From: Thiothrix unzii
GTDB taxonomy: Bacteria; Pseudomonadota; Gammaproteobacteria; Thiotrichales; Thiotrichaceae
Length of the DNA stretch: 64,000 nucleotides
Reading direction: 5' to 3'
NCBI RefSeq assembly: GCF_017901175.1
Contig: NZ_CP072793.1
Location: forward strand, 1,674,001-1,738,000
Shown: positions 20,998 to 63,801 of the stretch, piece after piece
Position numbering within the stretch: the first letter of the stretch is position 1
Layout of the letters: every line of letters begins with the position of its first letter
The notes under the pieces: generated by a model
The model's input: only the letters and a program-made list of their open reading frames with translations
Databases searched by the model: none
Told to the model about the DNA's origin: nothing
Translations under genes and position numbers: made by a program

Positions 20998-21030
20998 GGC
21001 GTGTTTCCTGTTGGTTTGGGTGGTGGGTAA

Positions 21031-21088
21031 GGGCGTATGCAATACGCCCCTACGGGATGTCTGCGGTAGGGGCGTATTGCATACGCCC
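21031..21088. repeat. large inverted repeat between cbbS and the small cbb gene
   Basis: Two perfectly complementary 23-bp arms (21031-21053 and 21066-21088) separated by 12 bases. Each arm is itself partly palindromic around GGGCGTAT and ATACGCCC. The GTAGGGGC start is shared with the repeat at 63721. In the cbb transcript it would form a very stable hairpin between RuBisCO and activase cistrons. Confidence 0.9.
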
Positions 21089-21111
21089 TCCACACGCCAT
21101 CTAACCATCAA

Positions 21112-49029: not shown

Positions 49030-49084
49030 TACTTGCGCTCATTGAAAGTTATTGAAACCTTTTTATTCAATCGAGGAGATAGTC

Positions 49085-50464
49085 ATGGACCAATCTGGAC
49101 GTTACGCGGATCTTAGTCTGAAAGAAGAAGACCTGATCGCAGGTGGTGGGCACATTCTGGTTGCCTACAAAATGAAGCCAAAAGCTGGCTATGGCTATCT
49201 GGAAGCGGCTGCGCATTTGGCAGCAGAATCTTCCACCGGTACTAACGTTGAAGTTTGCACCACCGATGATTTCACCAAGGGCGTTGACGCGCTGGTGTAC
49301 CACATCGACGAAGCAACCGAAGACATGCGTATCGCTTACCCGATTGACCTGTTCGACCGCAACATCACGGATGGCCGTATGATGCTGGTGTCGTTCCTGA
49401 CACTGGTTATCGGTAACAACCAAGGCATGGGCGACATTGAACACGCACAGATGATCGACTTCTTCATGCCGCCACGCGCTATCCAGTTGTTCGATGGTCC
49501 TGCGAAAGACATTTCTGACATGTGGCGTATTCTGGGTCGTGATGTTAACAACGGTGGTTACATCGCTGGTACTATCATCAAGCCTAAACTGGGTCTGCGC
49601 CCTGAGCCATTCGCTCACGCGGCTTACCAATTCTGGCTCGGCGGCGACTTCATCAAGAACGATGAACCGCAAGGCAACCAAGTTTTCTGCCCAGCGAAAA
49701 AAGTTTACCCACTCGTATACGACGCAATGAAGCGTGCGCAAGACGAAACCGGTCAAGCGAAACTGTTCTCTGCGAACATCACCGCTGACGACCATTACGA
49801 AATGTGCGCTCGTGCTGACTTCATCCTCGAAGCGTTTGGCCCGGATGCGGACAAAGTAGCATTCTTGGTTGACGGTTACGTTGGCGGCCCTGGCATGATC
49901 ACTACCGCTCGTCGCCAGTACCCTAACCAGTACCTGCACTACCACCGCGCGGGTCACGGTGCGATCACTTCCCCATCTTCCAAGCGTGGTTACACTGCGT
50001 TTGTATTGGCGAAAATGTCACGTCTGCAAGGTGCTTCCGGTATCCACGTCGGCACAATGGGCTTCGGCAAAATGGAAGGCGGTTCCGATGACAAAATCAT
50101 CGCGTACATGATTGAACGTGACGAGTGCCAAGGGCCTGTCTACTATCAAAAATGGCACGGTATGAAGCCAACTACCCCAATCATCTCTGGCGGTATGAAC
50201 GCACTGCGTCTGCCTGGCTTCTTCGAGAACTTGGGTCACGGTAACGTCATCAACACTTCCGGTGGCGGTTCTTACGGTCACATTGACAGCCCAGCGGCTG
50301 GCGCGATTTCCCTGCGTCAATCTTATGAGTGCTGGAAATCCGGTGCTGACCCGATCGAATTTGCGAAAGAGCACAAAGAATTTGCTCGCGCATTCGAGTC
50401 ATTCCCTGGCGATGCTGACAAGCTGTTCCCAGGCTGGCGCGAAAAGCTGGGCGTACACAAGTAA
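49085..50464 (+). CDS. cbbM: RuBisCO, form II
   Basis: 459-residue form II RuBisCO, which works as L2 or higher multimers without a small subunit and suits low oxygen and high CO2. Visible marks are [18 protein letters not shown], the carbamylated-lysine motif [14 protein letters not shown], and [24 protein letters not shown] lies seven bases before ATG 49085, which settles the start over an in-frame TTG at 49052. It leads cbbM-cbbQ2-cbbO2, with a hairpin in the gap to cbbQ2. Together with cbbL/cbbS it lets the cell fix carbon across a range of CO2 levels. Confidence 0.98.
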
Positions 50465-50486: not shown

Positions 50487-50512
50487 GTGGGTGGTGCATT
50501 CGCACTGCCCAC
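50487..50512 (+). promoter_or_regulatory. intercistronic hairpin after cbbM
   Basis: 11-bp arms 50487-50497 and 50502-50512 around ATTC, fully paired in RNA if two G-U pairs are allowed, followed by a pyrimidine-rich run (TTCTCCC, then TCTCTCT). It starts 23 bases past the cbbM stop and ahead of the cbbQ2 ribosome site. Partial termination or protection of the cbbM message from exonucleases would both raise RuBisCO over activase. Confidence 0.6.
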
Positions 50513-50544: not shown

Positions 50545-51348
50545 ATGACCGACGCTACCCAATACACCATCCAACACGAACCCTTCTACCAAGCCACCGG
50601 ACGCGAAGTCGAACTGTACCAAGCTGCGTACCGTTCCCGCCTGCCGGTGATGGTGAAAGGCCCGACGGGTTGCGGTAAATCGCGTTTCGTCGAACACATG
50701 GCATGGAAACTCGGCAAGCCACTGATCACAGTCGCTTGTAACGAAGACATGACCGCCTCCGATCTGGTCGGACGCTATTTACTCGAAGCCAATGGCACAC
50801 GCTGGCTGGATGGCCCATTGACCACTGCCGCCCGCATTGGCGCAATTTGCTACCTCGATGAAATCGTTGAGGCACGCCAGGATACTACCGTCGTCATTCA
50901 CCCGCTGACGGATCACCGCCGCACTTTGCCCTTAGATAAAAAAGGCGAACTGGTGAACGCGCACCCCGATTTTCAGTTGGTGATTTCCTACAATCCGGGC
51001 TATCAGAGCCTGATGAAAGATTTAAAACAGTCCACCAAGCAACGTTTTGTGGCATTCGATTTTGACTACCCTGCCGCTAACGTGGAATCCACCATTTTGC
51101 AGCAAGAAGCCAACGTGGACGCAGCAATGGCAGACAAGCTGGTGAAAATTGCCCACACCGCCCGTAACCTGAAAGGACATGGGCTGGATGAAGGCATTTC
51201 CACCCGTTTGCTGGTGTACGCCGCCAACCTGATGCGTGACGGGATTGCAGCAGGTGACGCTTGCCGCATGGCACTGGTTAGCCCGATTACCGATGATGCG
51301 GATATTCGCAGCACGCTGAACCACGCGATTGACGCGATTTTTGGGTGA
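50545..51348 (+). CDS. cbbQ2: RuBisCO activase AAA+ subunit CbbQ (form II-linked)
   Basis: 267-residue MoxR-type ATPase with Walker [24 protein letters not shown] for Walker B and [23 protein letters not shown], the same order as the form I copy. It differs mostly in the N- and C-terminal parts and near FVAFDFDYPAANVES. AGGA lies 10 bases before ATG 50545. In Acidithiobacillus, form II RuBisCO has its own Q2O2 activase, and this locus reproduces that arrangement. Confidence 0.95.
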   Translation: MTDATQYTIQHEPFYQATGREVELYQAAYRSRLPVMVKGPTGCGKSRFVEHMAWKLGKPLITVACNEDMTASDLVGRYLLEANGTRWLDGPLTTAARIGAICYLDEIVEARQDTTVVIHPLTDHRRTLPLDKKGELVNAHPDFQLVISYNPGYQSLMKDLKQSTKQRFVAFDFDYPAANVESTILQQEANVDAAMADKLVKIAHTARNLKGHGLDEGISTRLLVYAANLMRDGIAAGDACRMALVSPITDDADIRSTLNHAIDAIFG

Positions 51349-51353
51349 ATCAC

Positions 51354-53684
51354 ATGAGCGAGAAGAAACCCCTCCCAGCCTCCCCTTATCAGGGGAGGAG
51401 CGAAGAGGCAGCAGCTTCCGGCTTTCCCCCTGATAAGGGGGAATTGAAGGGGGTTTCTTTCTACCGCACCCAACTAAGCTGCAATTTCAAGCAGCTTGAT
51501 GAAGCCTTCGCCGCCTGTATGCAGGACGCGCTCGCGCTATTGAGCGAGCAAGGCATCAAGGATTACCTCGACGGTGCGTCGTTGGTGTGCAAAATCGGGC
51601 GCGGTTTCGACCCCGTGCTGACCTATCTGGAAGAAATGCCGGTCATCGCCCACAAGCTCGGTGAAGGGATGTTGACCCGCGTCAGCCAAGCGGTGTGGAA
51701 AATCTCGCGTACCCCCAACGGGCGCATTATTCCCATTTTTTTGCAGACCTTGCCGGACGTATGCCGCCGCCTCGAAAGCGAGGAATTGGTTGGGCATTAC
51801 ATCACCCTGTTGTTCGAGATGATGGAGCGTACCACGGGGTCGATTCACGGTTTCCACACCACCATTCCCAGCCCCGGTTTGCCGAAACTGCTGGAGCAAA
51901 TGCCTTATTTAATGAGCCAGCTAGCCTTGGGTGGCTTGAAGAACTGGATCGAATACGGCATCCGCAACTACGGCAAACACCCGCATCGGCAGGAAGAATA
52001 TTTCAGCCTGCAATCCGCCGATGCCAAGGCGATGTTGCAGCACGAACGCCACGGCACGCTGTTTACGCATAACGAGCGCAAGCTGAATTTGTACCTGCAA
52101 GCCTGCTGGGAAAGTCACGAATACCTCGTGCCGTATTCAGTGGACTTCCGCGATATGCGCGAGCAGCAGCCGTATTTTGACGAGTTCGGGATGCGTATTC
52201 CTGACGTGTTCGACGATGCGCATGGTGTGACGGGGATTGACCGTTACCGCGCGGTGTTGGCGCATATGGCGGCGCACCAACGCTGGACGCACAAAGTAGT
52301 GGCGGATAATTTCAGCCCACAACAGCGCATAGCGATTGAACGCCTCGAAGACAGTCGGGTGGAATATCTGGCGATGCAGGAATACCCCGGTTTGCGGCGG
52401 ATATTCACGGCGTTGCACCCTGCCCCCGTGGAAGATGAGTGCGATTCCAAGACCGAATCGTGTTTCCGGCATCGGCTGGCGATGTTGTCTTGGGCGATTT
52501 TGAATCCGGCGCATGGCTATCAGAACGTGAAGATCAATGAGTTTGCGGGCAAATTCCACGCAAAAATGCTGCAAGGCAACGCAACCACGGCGGATATGGT
52601 GTCTGTGGCGATTTCGTTTGTGGCACAGACGCGCTTGCAAACTGACCAGTTGCCGAGCGTGTATTTCAACAATACCGCCATTCCTTACCGCGATGATAAC
52701 CGCCATTTGTGGCAGTACATCGAGGAAAGCGACGACGAAGAATTCTTCGACGAACACAAGCAAACCGCGCAACAGAACGAGCAATCGGGCTTGCCGCCGC
52801 GCCATTATCCTGAGTGGGATTACAGCACCCAGACGTATCGCCCGGATTGGACGAGCGTGTATGAAAGTTTGCATCCGGCGGGTAATCCGGCGGTGATTGA
52901 TGCGCTGTTGCAAAAACACGCGGCGTTGGCAAAGCGGTTGAAGCAGATTGTGGATTTGTTGAAGCCGCAAAATTACACGCGGGTACGCTATCAAGAAGAA
53001 GGCAGTGAGCTTGACCTTGATGTGGCGATCCGTTCCCTGATTGATTTCAAGGGCGGGGCGAACCCTGATCCCCGCATCAATATGAGCCACAAGCATGACG
53101 GGCGCAATATTGCGGTCATGCTGTTGCTGGATTTGTCGGCTTCAATCAGCGAAGTGCCGGAAGGTGCGACCAGCAGCATTCTGGAACTGAGTCAGGAAGC
53201 GGTGTCGTTGTTGGCGTATGCGATTGAGGCGTTGGGTGACCCGTTTGCGATTGCGGGGTTTGCGTCCAATACGCGCCACGAGGTGCGTTACCAGCACATC
53301 AAGGGTTTCAAGGAACATTGGAACGACGAGGTGAAGGGGCGGCTGGCGGCAATGCAGGCGGGCTATTCGACGCGGATGGGCGCGGCGGTGCGTCATGCGG
53401 CACATTATCTGGAGCATCAACAGGCGGATAAAAAACTGCTGCTGATTTTAACCGATGGCGAACCGTCGGATATTGACGTGGATGACCCGCAATTATTGAC
53501 GCAAGATACGCGGCAAGCGGTGAAGGAATTGGATCAGAAAGGCATTTACAGCTATTGCATTAGCCTTGATCCGCGAGCGGATGAATACGTGCGGGATATT
53601 TTCGGCAAGCGCGTTACGGTGGTGGATAATGTTCAACGGTTGCCGGAAAGGATGACGCAGGTGTTTGTTACGTTGACGGGGTAG
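51354..53684 (+). CDS. cbbO2: RuBisCO activase adaptor CbbO (form II-linked) with a REP-derived N-terminal insert
   Basis: 776 residues from ATG 51354; a GTG at 51345 overlapping cbbQ2 is the alternative. After SEKK, about 30 residues (PLPASPYQGRSEEAAASG and on to KGELKGV) are encoded by a double-hairpin repeat of 93 bases, exactly 31 codons. The family sequence then begins at SFYRTQLSCNFKQLDEAF and GIKDYLDGASLVCKIGRG. The vWA metal site is LLLDLSASISE, and LLILTDGEPSDID follows. The insert adds a low-complexity tail where CbbO1 has none. The adaptor probably still works, because everything after it is intact. Confidence 0.93.
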   Translation: MSEKKPLPASPYQGRSEEAAASGFPPDKGELKGVSFYRTQLSCNFKQLDEAFAACMQDALALLSEQGIKDYLDGASLVCKIGRGFDPVLTYLEEMPVIAHKLGEGMLTRVSQAVWKISRTPNGRIIPIFLQTLPDVCRRLESEELVGHYITLLFEMMERTTGSIHGFHTTIPSPGLPKLLEQMPYLMSQLALGGLKNWIEYGIRNYGKHPHRQEEYFSLQSADAKAMLQHERHGTLFTHNERKLNLYLQACWESHEYLVPYSVDFRDMREQQPYFDEFGMRIPDVFDDAHGVTGIDRYRAVLAHMAAHQRWTHKVVADNFSPQQRIAIERLEDSRVEYLAMQEYPGLRRIFTALHPAPVEDECDSKTESCFRHRLAMLSWAILNPAHGYQNVKINEFAGKFHAKMLQGNATTADMVSVAISFVAQTRLQTDQLPSVYFNNTAIPYRDDNRHLWQYIEESDDEEFFDEHKQTAQQNEQSGLPPRHYPEWDYSTQTYRPDWTSVYESLHPAGNPAVIDALLQKHAALAKRLKQIVDLLKPQNYTRVRYQEEGSELDLDVAIRSLIDFKGGANPDPRINMSHKHDGRNIAVMLLLDLSASISEVPEGATSSILELSQEAVSLLAYAIEALGDPFAIAGFASNTRHEVRYQHIKGFKEHWNDEVKGRLAAMQAGYSTRMGAAVRHAAHYLEHQQADKKLLLILTDGEPSDIDVDDPQLLTQDTRQAVKELDQKGIYSYCISLDPRADEYVRDIFGKRVTVVDNVQRLPERMTQVFVTLTG
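51365..51457 (+). repeat. double-hairpin REP-like element inside cbbO2
   Basis: Bounded by GAAACCCC (51365-51372) and its complement GGGGTTTC (51450-51457). Inside are two perfect hairpins: an 8-bp CCTCCCCT stem with TATC loop (51379-51398) and an 8-bp TTCCCCCT stem with GATA loop (51424-51443). Its length is 93 bases, so the reading frame is preserved. Confidence 0.85.
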
Positions 53685-54878: not shown

Positions 54879-56192
54879 GAGTCTGTCAAATAAACTGTGT
54901 AACACGTTTTTCATAGGGCGGAGAGCGGAACCCGCTCTTCACCGAACATAAGTAAAAAAGTCTGCAAAGCGGGTTTCCAGTGGTGAATGACCGACCACTT
55001 TTGCGAGGCTTCGCGTACCGCCAAATACAGGCTTTTGAGGGCTGAACTGTCATTGGGAAAGATGCGCCGGTTGCGGGTAAACTTGCGCAAACTCATGTTC
55101 AGGGATTCAATCGCATTGGTGGTGTAAATCACTTTGCGGATCTCCGGCTGGAACTGGAAAAACGGGATGACATTCGCCCAGTTACCGCGCCATAGACGCA
55201 CGACTGCTTTGTATTTGTTACCCCATTCGGTGTCGAGGGCTTCCAGTTCGTGTTCGGCTTCTTCAGCAGTGCTGGACTGGTAAATGCGCTTGAGGGCAGC
55301 GACCACACCTTTGGTATCCTTGGCGGTGACGTAGCGCAAGCTGGCGCGAACCATGTGTACCATGCACAACTGGGTCAGCGTTTTGGGGAAGACCGCGTTG
55401 ACGGCTTCAGGCAAGCCGTTTAAGCCATCCATGCACGCCACGTAGATGTCTTGTACGCCCCGGTGGCGTAGTTCCGTCAAGACCGATAACCAGAACTTGG
55501 CACCTTCATTTTCTGCCAACCAGATGCCCAACACGTCCTTTTCACCGCGTAAGTTGACCGCCAATACCACATGGGCTGATTTATTGATGACCTGCTTATC
55601 TTGTTGAACTTTAACGACAATCCCATCGAGCCAGACAATCGGGTAGATATTATCCAGTGCTCGCGTCTGCCACGCTTTAGCTTCGCCCTGAACGGCTTCG
55701 GTTACTTCCGCGATCAGCGTATGCGAGATGTCCACCCCGTACAGGCGTTTGATCGTGTCTTCGATGTCGCGGGTGGTCATGCCTTTGGCGTACAGCGTCA
55801 GGATGTGTTCTTCCATCCCTGCTAACCGTATTTGGCGTTTTTGTATCAACTTCGGCTCAAAGCTGCCATCACGGTCACGCGGTGTCTCTACCTGCAACTC
55901 ACCAAATTCGCCTTTGATGGTCTTGTTGCCTTTGCCGTTACGGGTATTGCTGCGCCGTTGCCCGGCTTCGCTACGCTCACCCTTGTCGTAGTTTAGGTGC
56001 ACATCCAATTCGGCTTCCAAGCTGCGGTTGATCATCCGCTGCAAGAGCTGGCTGTAAAGGTTTTTGACATCAGCAGGCGTTTTGCAATCGCTGAGTAAGT
56101 CATCCATGAGTTTCGGGTCGAGGCGTTCCATGTTACTGCTCCTTCTTGGGATTCACGTTATATAGCAGTTACACAGTTCAGTTTACAGTCTC
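54879..56192 (-). mobile_element. complete IS256-family insertion sequence
   Basis: 1314 bp. Terminal inverted repeats of 25 bases (54879-54903 and 56168-56192) match at 20 positions and both include AACTGTGTAAC. The element is flanked by an 8-base direct repeat TTTTCCTC at 54871-54878 and 56193-56200, the target-site duplication length usual for IS256. It carries one intact transposase and splits xisI. Good ends and a perfect duplication suggest a fairly recent insertion. Confidence 0.95.
54911..56131 (-). CDS. IS256-family transposase
   Basis: 406-residue MULE-type DDE transposase. The catalytic triad is D169 in IVWLDGIVVK, D235 in ACMDGLNGLPEA and E342 in TTNAIESLNMSLRK, and the CxxH mark is seen in LCMVHM. 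The N-terminal DNA-binding part contains RSNTRNGKGNK and GELQVETPRDRDG. AAGGAG lies eight bases before the ATG. No frameshift or stop interrupts it, so the element could still move. Confidence 0.96.
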   Translation of the reverse strand: MERLDPKLMDDLLSDCKTPADVKNLYSQLLQRMINRSLEAELDVHLNYDKGERSEAGQRRSNTRNGKGNKTIKGEFGELQVETPRDRDGSFEPKLIQKRQIRLAGMEEHILTLYAKGMTTRDIEDTIKRLYGVDISHTLIAEVTEAVQGEAKAWQTRALDNIYPIVWLDGIVVKVQQDKQVINKSAHVVLAVNLRGEKDVLGIWLAENEGAKFWLSVLTELRHRGVQDIYVACMDGLNGLPEAVNAVFPKTLTQLCMVHMVRASLRYVTAKDTKGVVAALKRIYQSSTAEEAEHELEALDTEWGNKYKAVVRLWRGNWANVIPFFQFQPEIRKVIYTTNAIESLNMSLRKFTRNRRIFPNDSSALKSLYLAVREASQKWSVIHHWKPALQTFLLMFGEERVPLSAL

Positions 56193-63700: not shown

Positions 63701-63720
63701 TCAAATATCTGCCTATTGAT

Positions 63721-63796
63721 GTAGGGGCAGACCTACGTGTCTGCCCTCTCTTTCTTTACCCGATTAAAGAGGGCAGACACATAGGTCTGCCCCTAC
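63721..63796. repeat. large inverted repeat between gcvH and gcvP
   Basis: 29-bp arms (63721-63749 and 63768-63796) with one mismatch around an 18-base loop. They begin GTAGGGGCAGAC and end GTCTGCCCCTAC. The GTAGGGGC outer part is shared with the repeat at 21031-21088, suggesting one repeat family with variable inner arms. Confidence 0.9.
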
Positions 63797-63801
63797 GCTA
63801 A

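Follow-up and report, generated by a model that had tools for sequence, protein, structure and literature searches.

A putatively translated REP-like palindrome at the start of the rubisco activase gene cbbO2 of Thiothrix unzii, and palindromes of several families at shared protein sites in the genus

Palindromic elements lying in frame within genes are already known, first from Rickettsia and later from scattered REP-bearing species; the Rickettsia palindromic elements (RPE) reportedly go back to Ogata 2000. RPE are found in frame in conserved proteins (PMC2229807, PMC10969869), and both they and their Wolbachia counterpart resemble the Thiothrix elements considered here, termed type A, in being dispersed palindromes of about 100–150 bp, many copies of which keep the frame of a conserved host protein. 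Intragenic REPs of the GTAG/CGTC superfamily (Di Nocera et al. 2013, PMC3733652) are similar to type A as well: they form REP dimers in ORFs, encode 20–30 residues, are viewed in a way that matches translated, frame-keeping elements, and often reside in genes for replication and repair of DNA, similar to the Thiothrix copies in PolA, RecG, RecC, Mfd and DnaX. REPINs, i.e. REP doublets associated with RAYT, share with type A the arrangement of two inverted REP-like units flanking a short spacer. At the level of mRNA, 3′ hairpins shape operon stoichiometry in Escherichia coli, where the malE-malF intergenic structure favours MalE (PMC5927463). In Thiothrix, too, a stable hairpin separates a 5′ gene whose product is needed in excess from its 3′ partner; unlike the mal structure, it is placed in the opening codons of that second gene.

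The window analysed here, a stretch of 64,000 nucleotides of the T. unzii genome, carries a cbbM-cbbQ2-cbbO2 cluster with the following features:

49052..50464 (start approximate), plus strand: cbbM (form II rubisco), first gene of the cluster, identified by inspection
50545..51348, plus strand: cbbQ2, MoxR AAA+ partner of CbbO2, identified from sequence and operon context
51343..51348, plus strand: GGGTGA, SD-like site of cbbO2 read from the sequence, overlapping the cbbQ2 stop codon
51354..53684, plus strand: cbbO2, CbbO-type rubisco activase adaptor, with the first 36 or so codons mostly element-encoded; assigned from frame, start context, orthologs and N-termini
51363..51459, plus strand: type A palindromic element (REP doublet), in frame in cbbO2; assigned from inverted arms, fold z-score and homologous copies in its own genome and the genus
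51379..51398, plus strand: inner hairpin 1, stem 8 bp (halves 51379-51386/51391-51398), loop 4 nt
51424..51443, plus strand: inner hairpin 2, stem 8 bp (halves 51424-51431/51436-51443), loop 4 nt

For cbbQ2, an upstream GTG at 50491 is likewise open. Just 3′ of the cbb cluster, an ORF resembling IS256-type transposases was noted by inspection on the minus strand (54911-56131).

A preliminary description of this DNA had reported a 93-base repeat (31 codons) with two perfect 8-bp hairpins at the start of cbbO2. Both hairpins were recovered, and they are enclosed by a single imperfect inverted repeat with outer arms at 51363-51395 and 51427-51459 (33 nt each, 79% complementary, 31 nt apart); the repeat is real, with a size of about 97 bp rather than 93. 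RNA folding of positions 51360-51462 yields one long hairpin of -62.3 kcal/mol (z -6.3, with 0 of 200 shuffled sequences as stable), and the motif CCCCTTATCAGGGG occurs a single time within the window and not at all in shuffles. The 33-nt arms are terminal inverted repeats of the kind that characterises MITEs, and two inverted REP-like palindromes with a short spacer and many dispersed copies are the make-up of a REP doublet or REPIN. The type A unit starts with AAGAAACCCC and has neither GTAG nor CGTC at its end, which sets it apart from the GTAG/CGTC superfamily. Matches to known Rfam families were at chance level only, and assignment to such a family was rejected. No target-site duplication was seen by eye when the elements in cbbO2, CydD and PolA were compared with empty alleles; host sequence at these three sites seems to have been replaced rather than simply inserted into.

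The cbbO2 frame is open from the ATG at 51354 through the element, which is placed in frame after codon 3, to position 53684, as the preliminary description had stated. Relative to empty alleles (MEDTIARYR...), the protein is longer by 29 codons, and a few ancestral codons are replaced. The extra residues are missing from the five empty Thiothrix alleles and, in agreement with the earlier claim of about 30 residues absent from CbbO1, from the CbbO1 N-terminus encoded in the window; nor are they conserved in distant CbbO proteins. The frame in which the first half of the cbbO2 copy is read (KKPLPASPYQGR) is unusual compared with most in-frame type A copies. In the AlphaFold model of CbbO2, residues 1-31 have pLDDT below 50 (means about 30), and ordered fold and helices begin near residues 28-32. 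The tail would comprise some 30 residues rich in proline, glycine and serine, and is probably disordered. The element is most readily understood as a palindrome that codes for protein and is tolerated, both translation and tolerance of the tail being inferred.

A second full-length type A copy is present in the T. unzii genome (C2:1019190-1019281), plus about six single units, one of which (C2:1995323-1995371) lies within a short cytochrome-like ORF, in its reading frame, with QETPPNLPLSGEGQEGS before the CAGCH motif. Full or partial copies were detected in 15/15 other members of Thiothrix searched and in one further genus of the same family, and none in the other families sampled. A census with a strict exact pattern, based on genome searches and the stretches around matches, gave 71 copies in 13/16 Thiothrix genomes and none with a control pattern. 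By site, 35 of these fall inside coding sequence and keep its frame, 9 are N-terminal (including cbbO2), 3 C-terminal and 24 without gene assignment; coding on both flanks was called from codon-usage scores, for which the window and 13 related stretches served as training set. The 35 internal copies count orthologs separately and correspond to about 26 distinct host proteins by our own grouping. Hosts with NCBIfam matches include PolA, Mfd, HypF, RecG, CobB, MenD and malate synthase G, as well as MoeA, Fmt, DnaX, RecC, CydD and SucB. One frame, (K/E)ETPPNLPLSGE...PDKGRLGGVS, is shared by 28/35 internal copies, and core length is 1 mod 3 in 29/35. With 35/71 strict copies in the frame of conserved proteins, many of them unrelated to one another, type A works in the manner of RPE. 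The preliminary view of an intergenic repeat that became protein stands as regards a dispersed repeat read as protein, while "intergenic" is partly off, half of the strict copies being intragenic genus-wide.

Complementarity of the outer arms, which were no part of the pattern searched for, is 69% in coding and non-coding copies alike, against about 40% when the arms are slid, and bases flanking the cores vary as matching pairs (CCT/CCT 102, CTC/CTC 10, few mismatches). A search for RAYT (Y1_Tnp, PF01797) found it in 10/16 genomes of the genus; it was absent from T. unzii and from G007 and G013, the two genomes richest in strict copies (21 and 19, respectively). RAYT as the current mobiliser in T. 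unzii was accordingly rejected, and its absence from these three genomes distinguishes type A from REPINs. In the same way, type A differs from GTAG/CGTC REPs both in lacking their tag and in the lack of RAYT in T. unzii, whereas types B and C of related species (see below) begin with GTAG. Searches of plasmid DNA with the element and of phages with the element-encoded peptide gave no match.

A cbbO2 ortholog is found in 14/16 genomes, in 13 of them directly downstream of cbbQ2, and five palindrome families (A–E) occupy the cbbQ2-cbbO2 junction across Thiothrix, of which two (A and B) appear to be translated. The junction is empty in G002, G005, G006, G011 and G013, where the CbbO2 N-terminus reads M(E/D)xTIARYR or a similar sequence. 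In G001 and G010, another palindrome, type B (GTAGGGGCGACC...), keeps the frame of cbbO2 and is placed at almost the same codon as type A. Palindromes 5′ of the cbbO2 start codon belong to type C (GTAGGGGCGTATTGCATACGCCC) in G007 and G015, type D (CCTTCCCCCGCAAGGGG) in G008 and G012, and type E (CCCTCTCCCTCAAGGGGCGAGGGG) in G014. Outside the tail, CbbO2 is 97–99% identical across species with type A, type B or no insert. Phylogeny of cbbO2 is mostly unresolved with respect to junction types; the only supported pairs are G005/G013 and G011/G015, and the latter differs at the junction (empty and type C, respectively). In the CbbO loci examined outside Thiothrix, an insert of this kind is absent, and conserved sequence begins 3–19 residues past the closest ATG. 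Several copies of a GC-rich hairpin (GCGCAGAACCGCATACGCAGTTCTGCGC) lie near cbbO2 of G009 (L097, 12261-15601), a genome that lacks cbbQ2 immediately 5′ of this gene. Other cbb operons bear palindromes at cbbQ-cbbO or 5′ of cbbQ. Within the window, a GTAG-type palindrome (GTAGGGGCGTATTGCATACGCCC doublet) lies 5′ of cbbQ1 (21001-21100) and shows the window's lowest folding energy; a further GTAG-type doublet (TGTAGGGGCAGACC...GGTCTGCCCCTAC) is located at 63701-63800 (-59 kcal/mol).

As at the cbbQ2-cbbO2 junction, the resident palindrome changes from one species to the next in the linkers of PolA and CydD. In 13/16 genomes, the linker that joins the 5′ nuclease and 3′-5′ exonuclease domains of PolA contains an in-frame palindrome, which belongs to type A in five genomes, to type D in four, to type F (the CCCCCCTTTTTCAAAGGGGGG family) in two and to GTAG type B in two; one further genome has a partial copy. 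In T. unzii itself, the in-frame palindrome of PolA (C2:3316136-3316882), CCCCCCTTTTTCAAAGAGGGG, is of type F and thus not of the family present in cbbO2. No palindrome was apparent in PolA linkers of other genera among the matches listed. Across species, the CydD linker holds palindromes of four families, and five species have none there; in T. unzii CydD (C2:1128436-1129125) a CCCCCTTTTTCAAAGGGGG palindrome lies in frame, and relatives have A, D, E or none. RecG carries type A in three species and a partial copy in one. In RecG of T. unzii (C2:1419895-1420311) and of G003, a short NGRLGGIS resembles the end of the element-encoded peptide and is likely, judging from this resemblance, to be the scar of a lost type A copy.

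Misannotation has been pointed out as a hazard for N-terminal REPs by Di Nocera et al. (PMC3733652), and the element could accordingly be extragenic, with CbbO2 starting downstream. A TTG at 51444, in frame near the end of the element and preceded by an SD-like AAGGGGG, could serve as such a start, and in five other species the palindrome does precede the cbbO2 start codon. Yet the spacing between this site and the TTG, 2 nt, is too short; the next in-frame start, the ATG at 51519, lies past conserved residues; species with an upstream palindrome have a GGAG-like site before their ATG, and none follows the element in T. unzii. The ATG at 51354 has GGTGA five bases 5′, an arrangement common to the species with type B, and we consider a downstream start improbable. 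That the tail has instead gained a function, such as binding CbbQ2 or CbbM, might be suggested by the finding that the N-terminal region of CbbO (residues 1-444) binds CbbQ (PMC4660213). A tail that is predicted to be disordered, and that is wholly different among species with type A, type B or no insert while the remaining protein is nearly identical, leaves this idea with hardly any credence.

A further explanation concerns the mRNA. A hairpin at the junction may have been selected because it shields the 3′ end of cbbQ2 mRNA, limits cbbO2, or both, so that CbbQ would exceed CbbO towards the 6:1 complex which the two proteins form (CbbQ6CbbO1, PMC4660213); palindromes would then have been recruited repeatedly, and translation of two of them would be a by-product. 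Strong hairpins, as judged by local folding energy, occur at this junction in 8/14 genomes, contributed by five families, compared to 6/215 other junctions of the same regions (Fisher p 5e-8, uncorrected for kinship). Palindromes in the other cbb operons and the differential decay conferred by 3′ structures in malEFG (PMC5927463) also point in this direction. However, the junction was picked precisely because the window species bears an element there, it is empty in 5/13 species having it, and only 1/73 CbbO loci outside Thiothrix has a strong hairpin, so that the hairpin is dispensable for function. Similar exchange, moreover, is seen in the linkers of PolA and CydD, where stoichiometry offers no reason. 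The computed cost of opening the cbbO2 initiation region bears on the preliminary suggestion that mRNA structure could lower activase translation: it is highest in T. unzii (22.4 kcal/mol), which lends the suggestion some weak support, but other species span 6.7–20.6 kcal/mol, and two with another translated palindrome require 11–13 kcal/mol. A strong block of initiation was rejected, the T. unzii value being near the range of the other species. Selection for the hairpin is therefore kept here as a possible but doubtful account. A regulatory role is reasonable as a second layer, given the 6:1 ratio of CbbQ to CbbO and the ability of 3′ hairpins to set stoichiometry in E. coli; any effect of the element on the CbbQ:CbbO ratio is inferred. 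Rather unlikely, in our estimation, is a broader proposal in which Thiothrix possesses fixed palindrome sites, some in conserved proteins, whose residents are swapped between families with site and frame kept, and in which the cbbQ-cbbO junction repeatedly recruits a hairpin setting activase stoichiometry.

We favour, with good confidence, the explanation that a non-autonomous palindrome entered the first codons of cbbO2 and is translated as a tolerated tail. A transposon-like element of about 97 bp, made of two inverted REP-like units, would have entered in one Thiothrix lineage; because its stop-free frame keeps cbbO2 open, it would be translated as a tail of about 30 residues ahead of the first CbbO2 helix. 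Termini, interdomain linkers and gene junctions would be permissive sites at which in-frame landings survive, and the cbbO2 element would be tolerated for this reason. In the cbbQ2-cbbO2 mRNA, the stop codon of cbbQ2 would at the same time be followed closely by a stable hairpin.

The likeness of type A to RPE is one of arrangement, and no membership is claimed. In contrast to the Rickettsia case, Thiothrix is a free-living gammaproteobacterium, and different palindrome families share orthologous protein sites. Our literature search retrieved no report of such in-frame palindromes for Thiothrix and, as far as it shows, their abundance in this genus and the presence of different families at the same orthologous sites are new. 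Such same-site occupation may reflect either tolerant sites that were hit repeatedly or palindromes exchanged in situ. In-frame palindromes are thus frequent in a free-living sulfur bacterium, and in its core proteins. With this natural set of alleles (empty, A, B, C, D, E and F) in near-identical genes, one could study the conversion of mobile repeats into protein sequence, tell insertion hotspots from exchange sites among linkers, and ask if a hairpin between two cistrons adjusts the subunit ratio of a rubisco activase.
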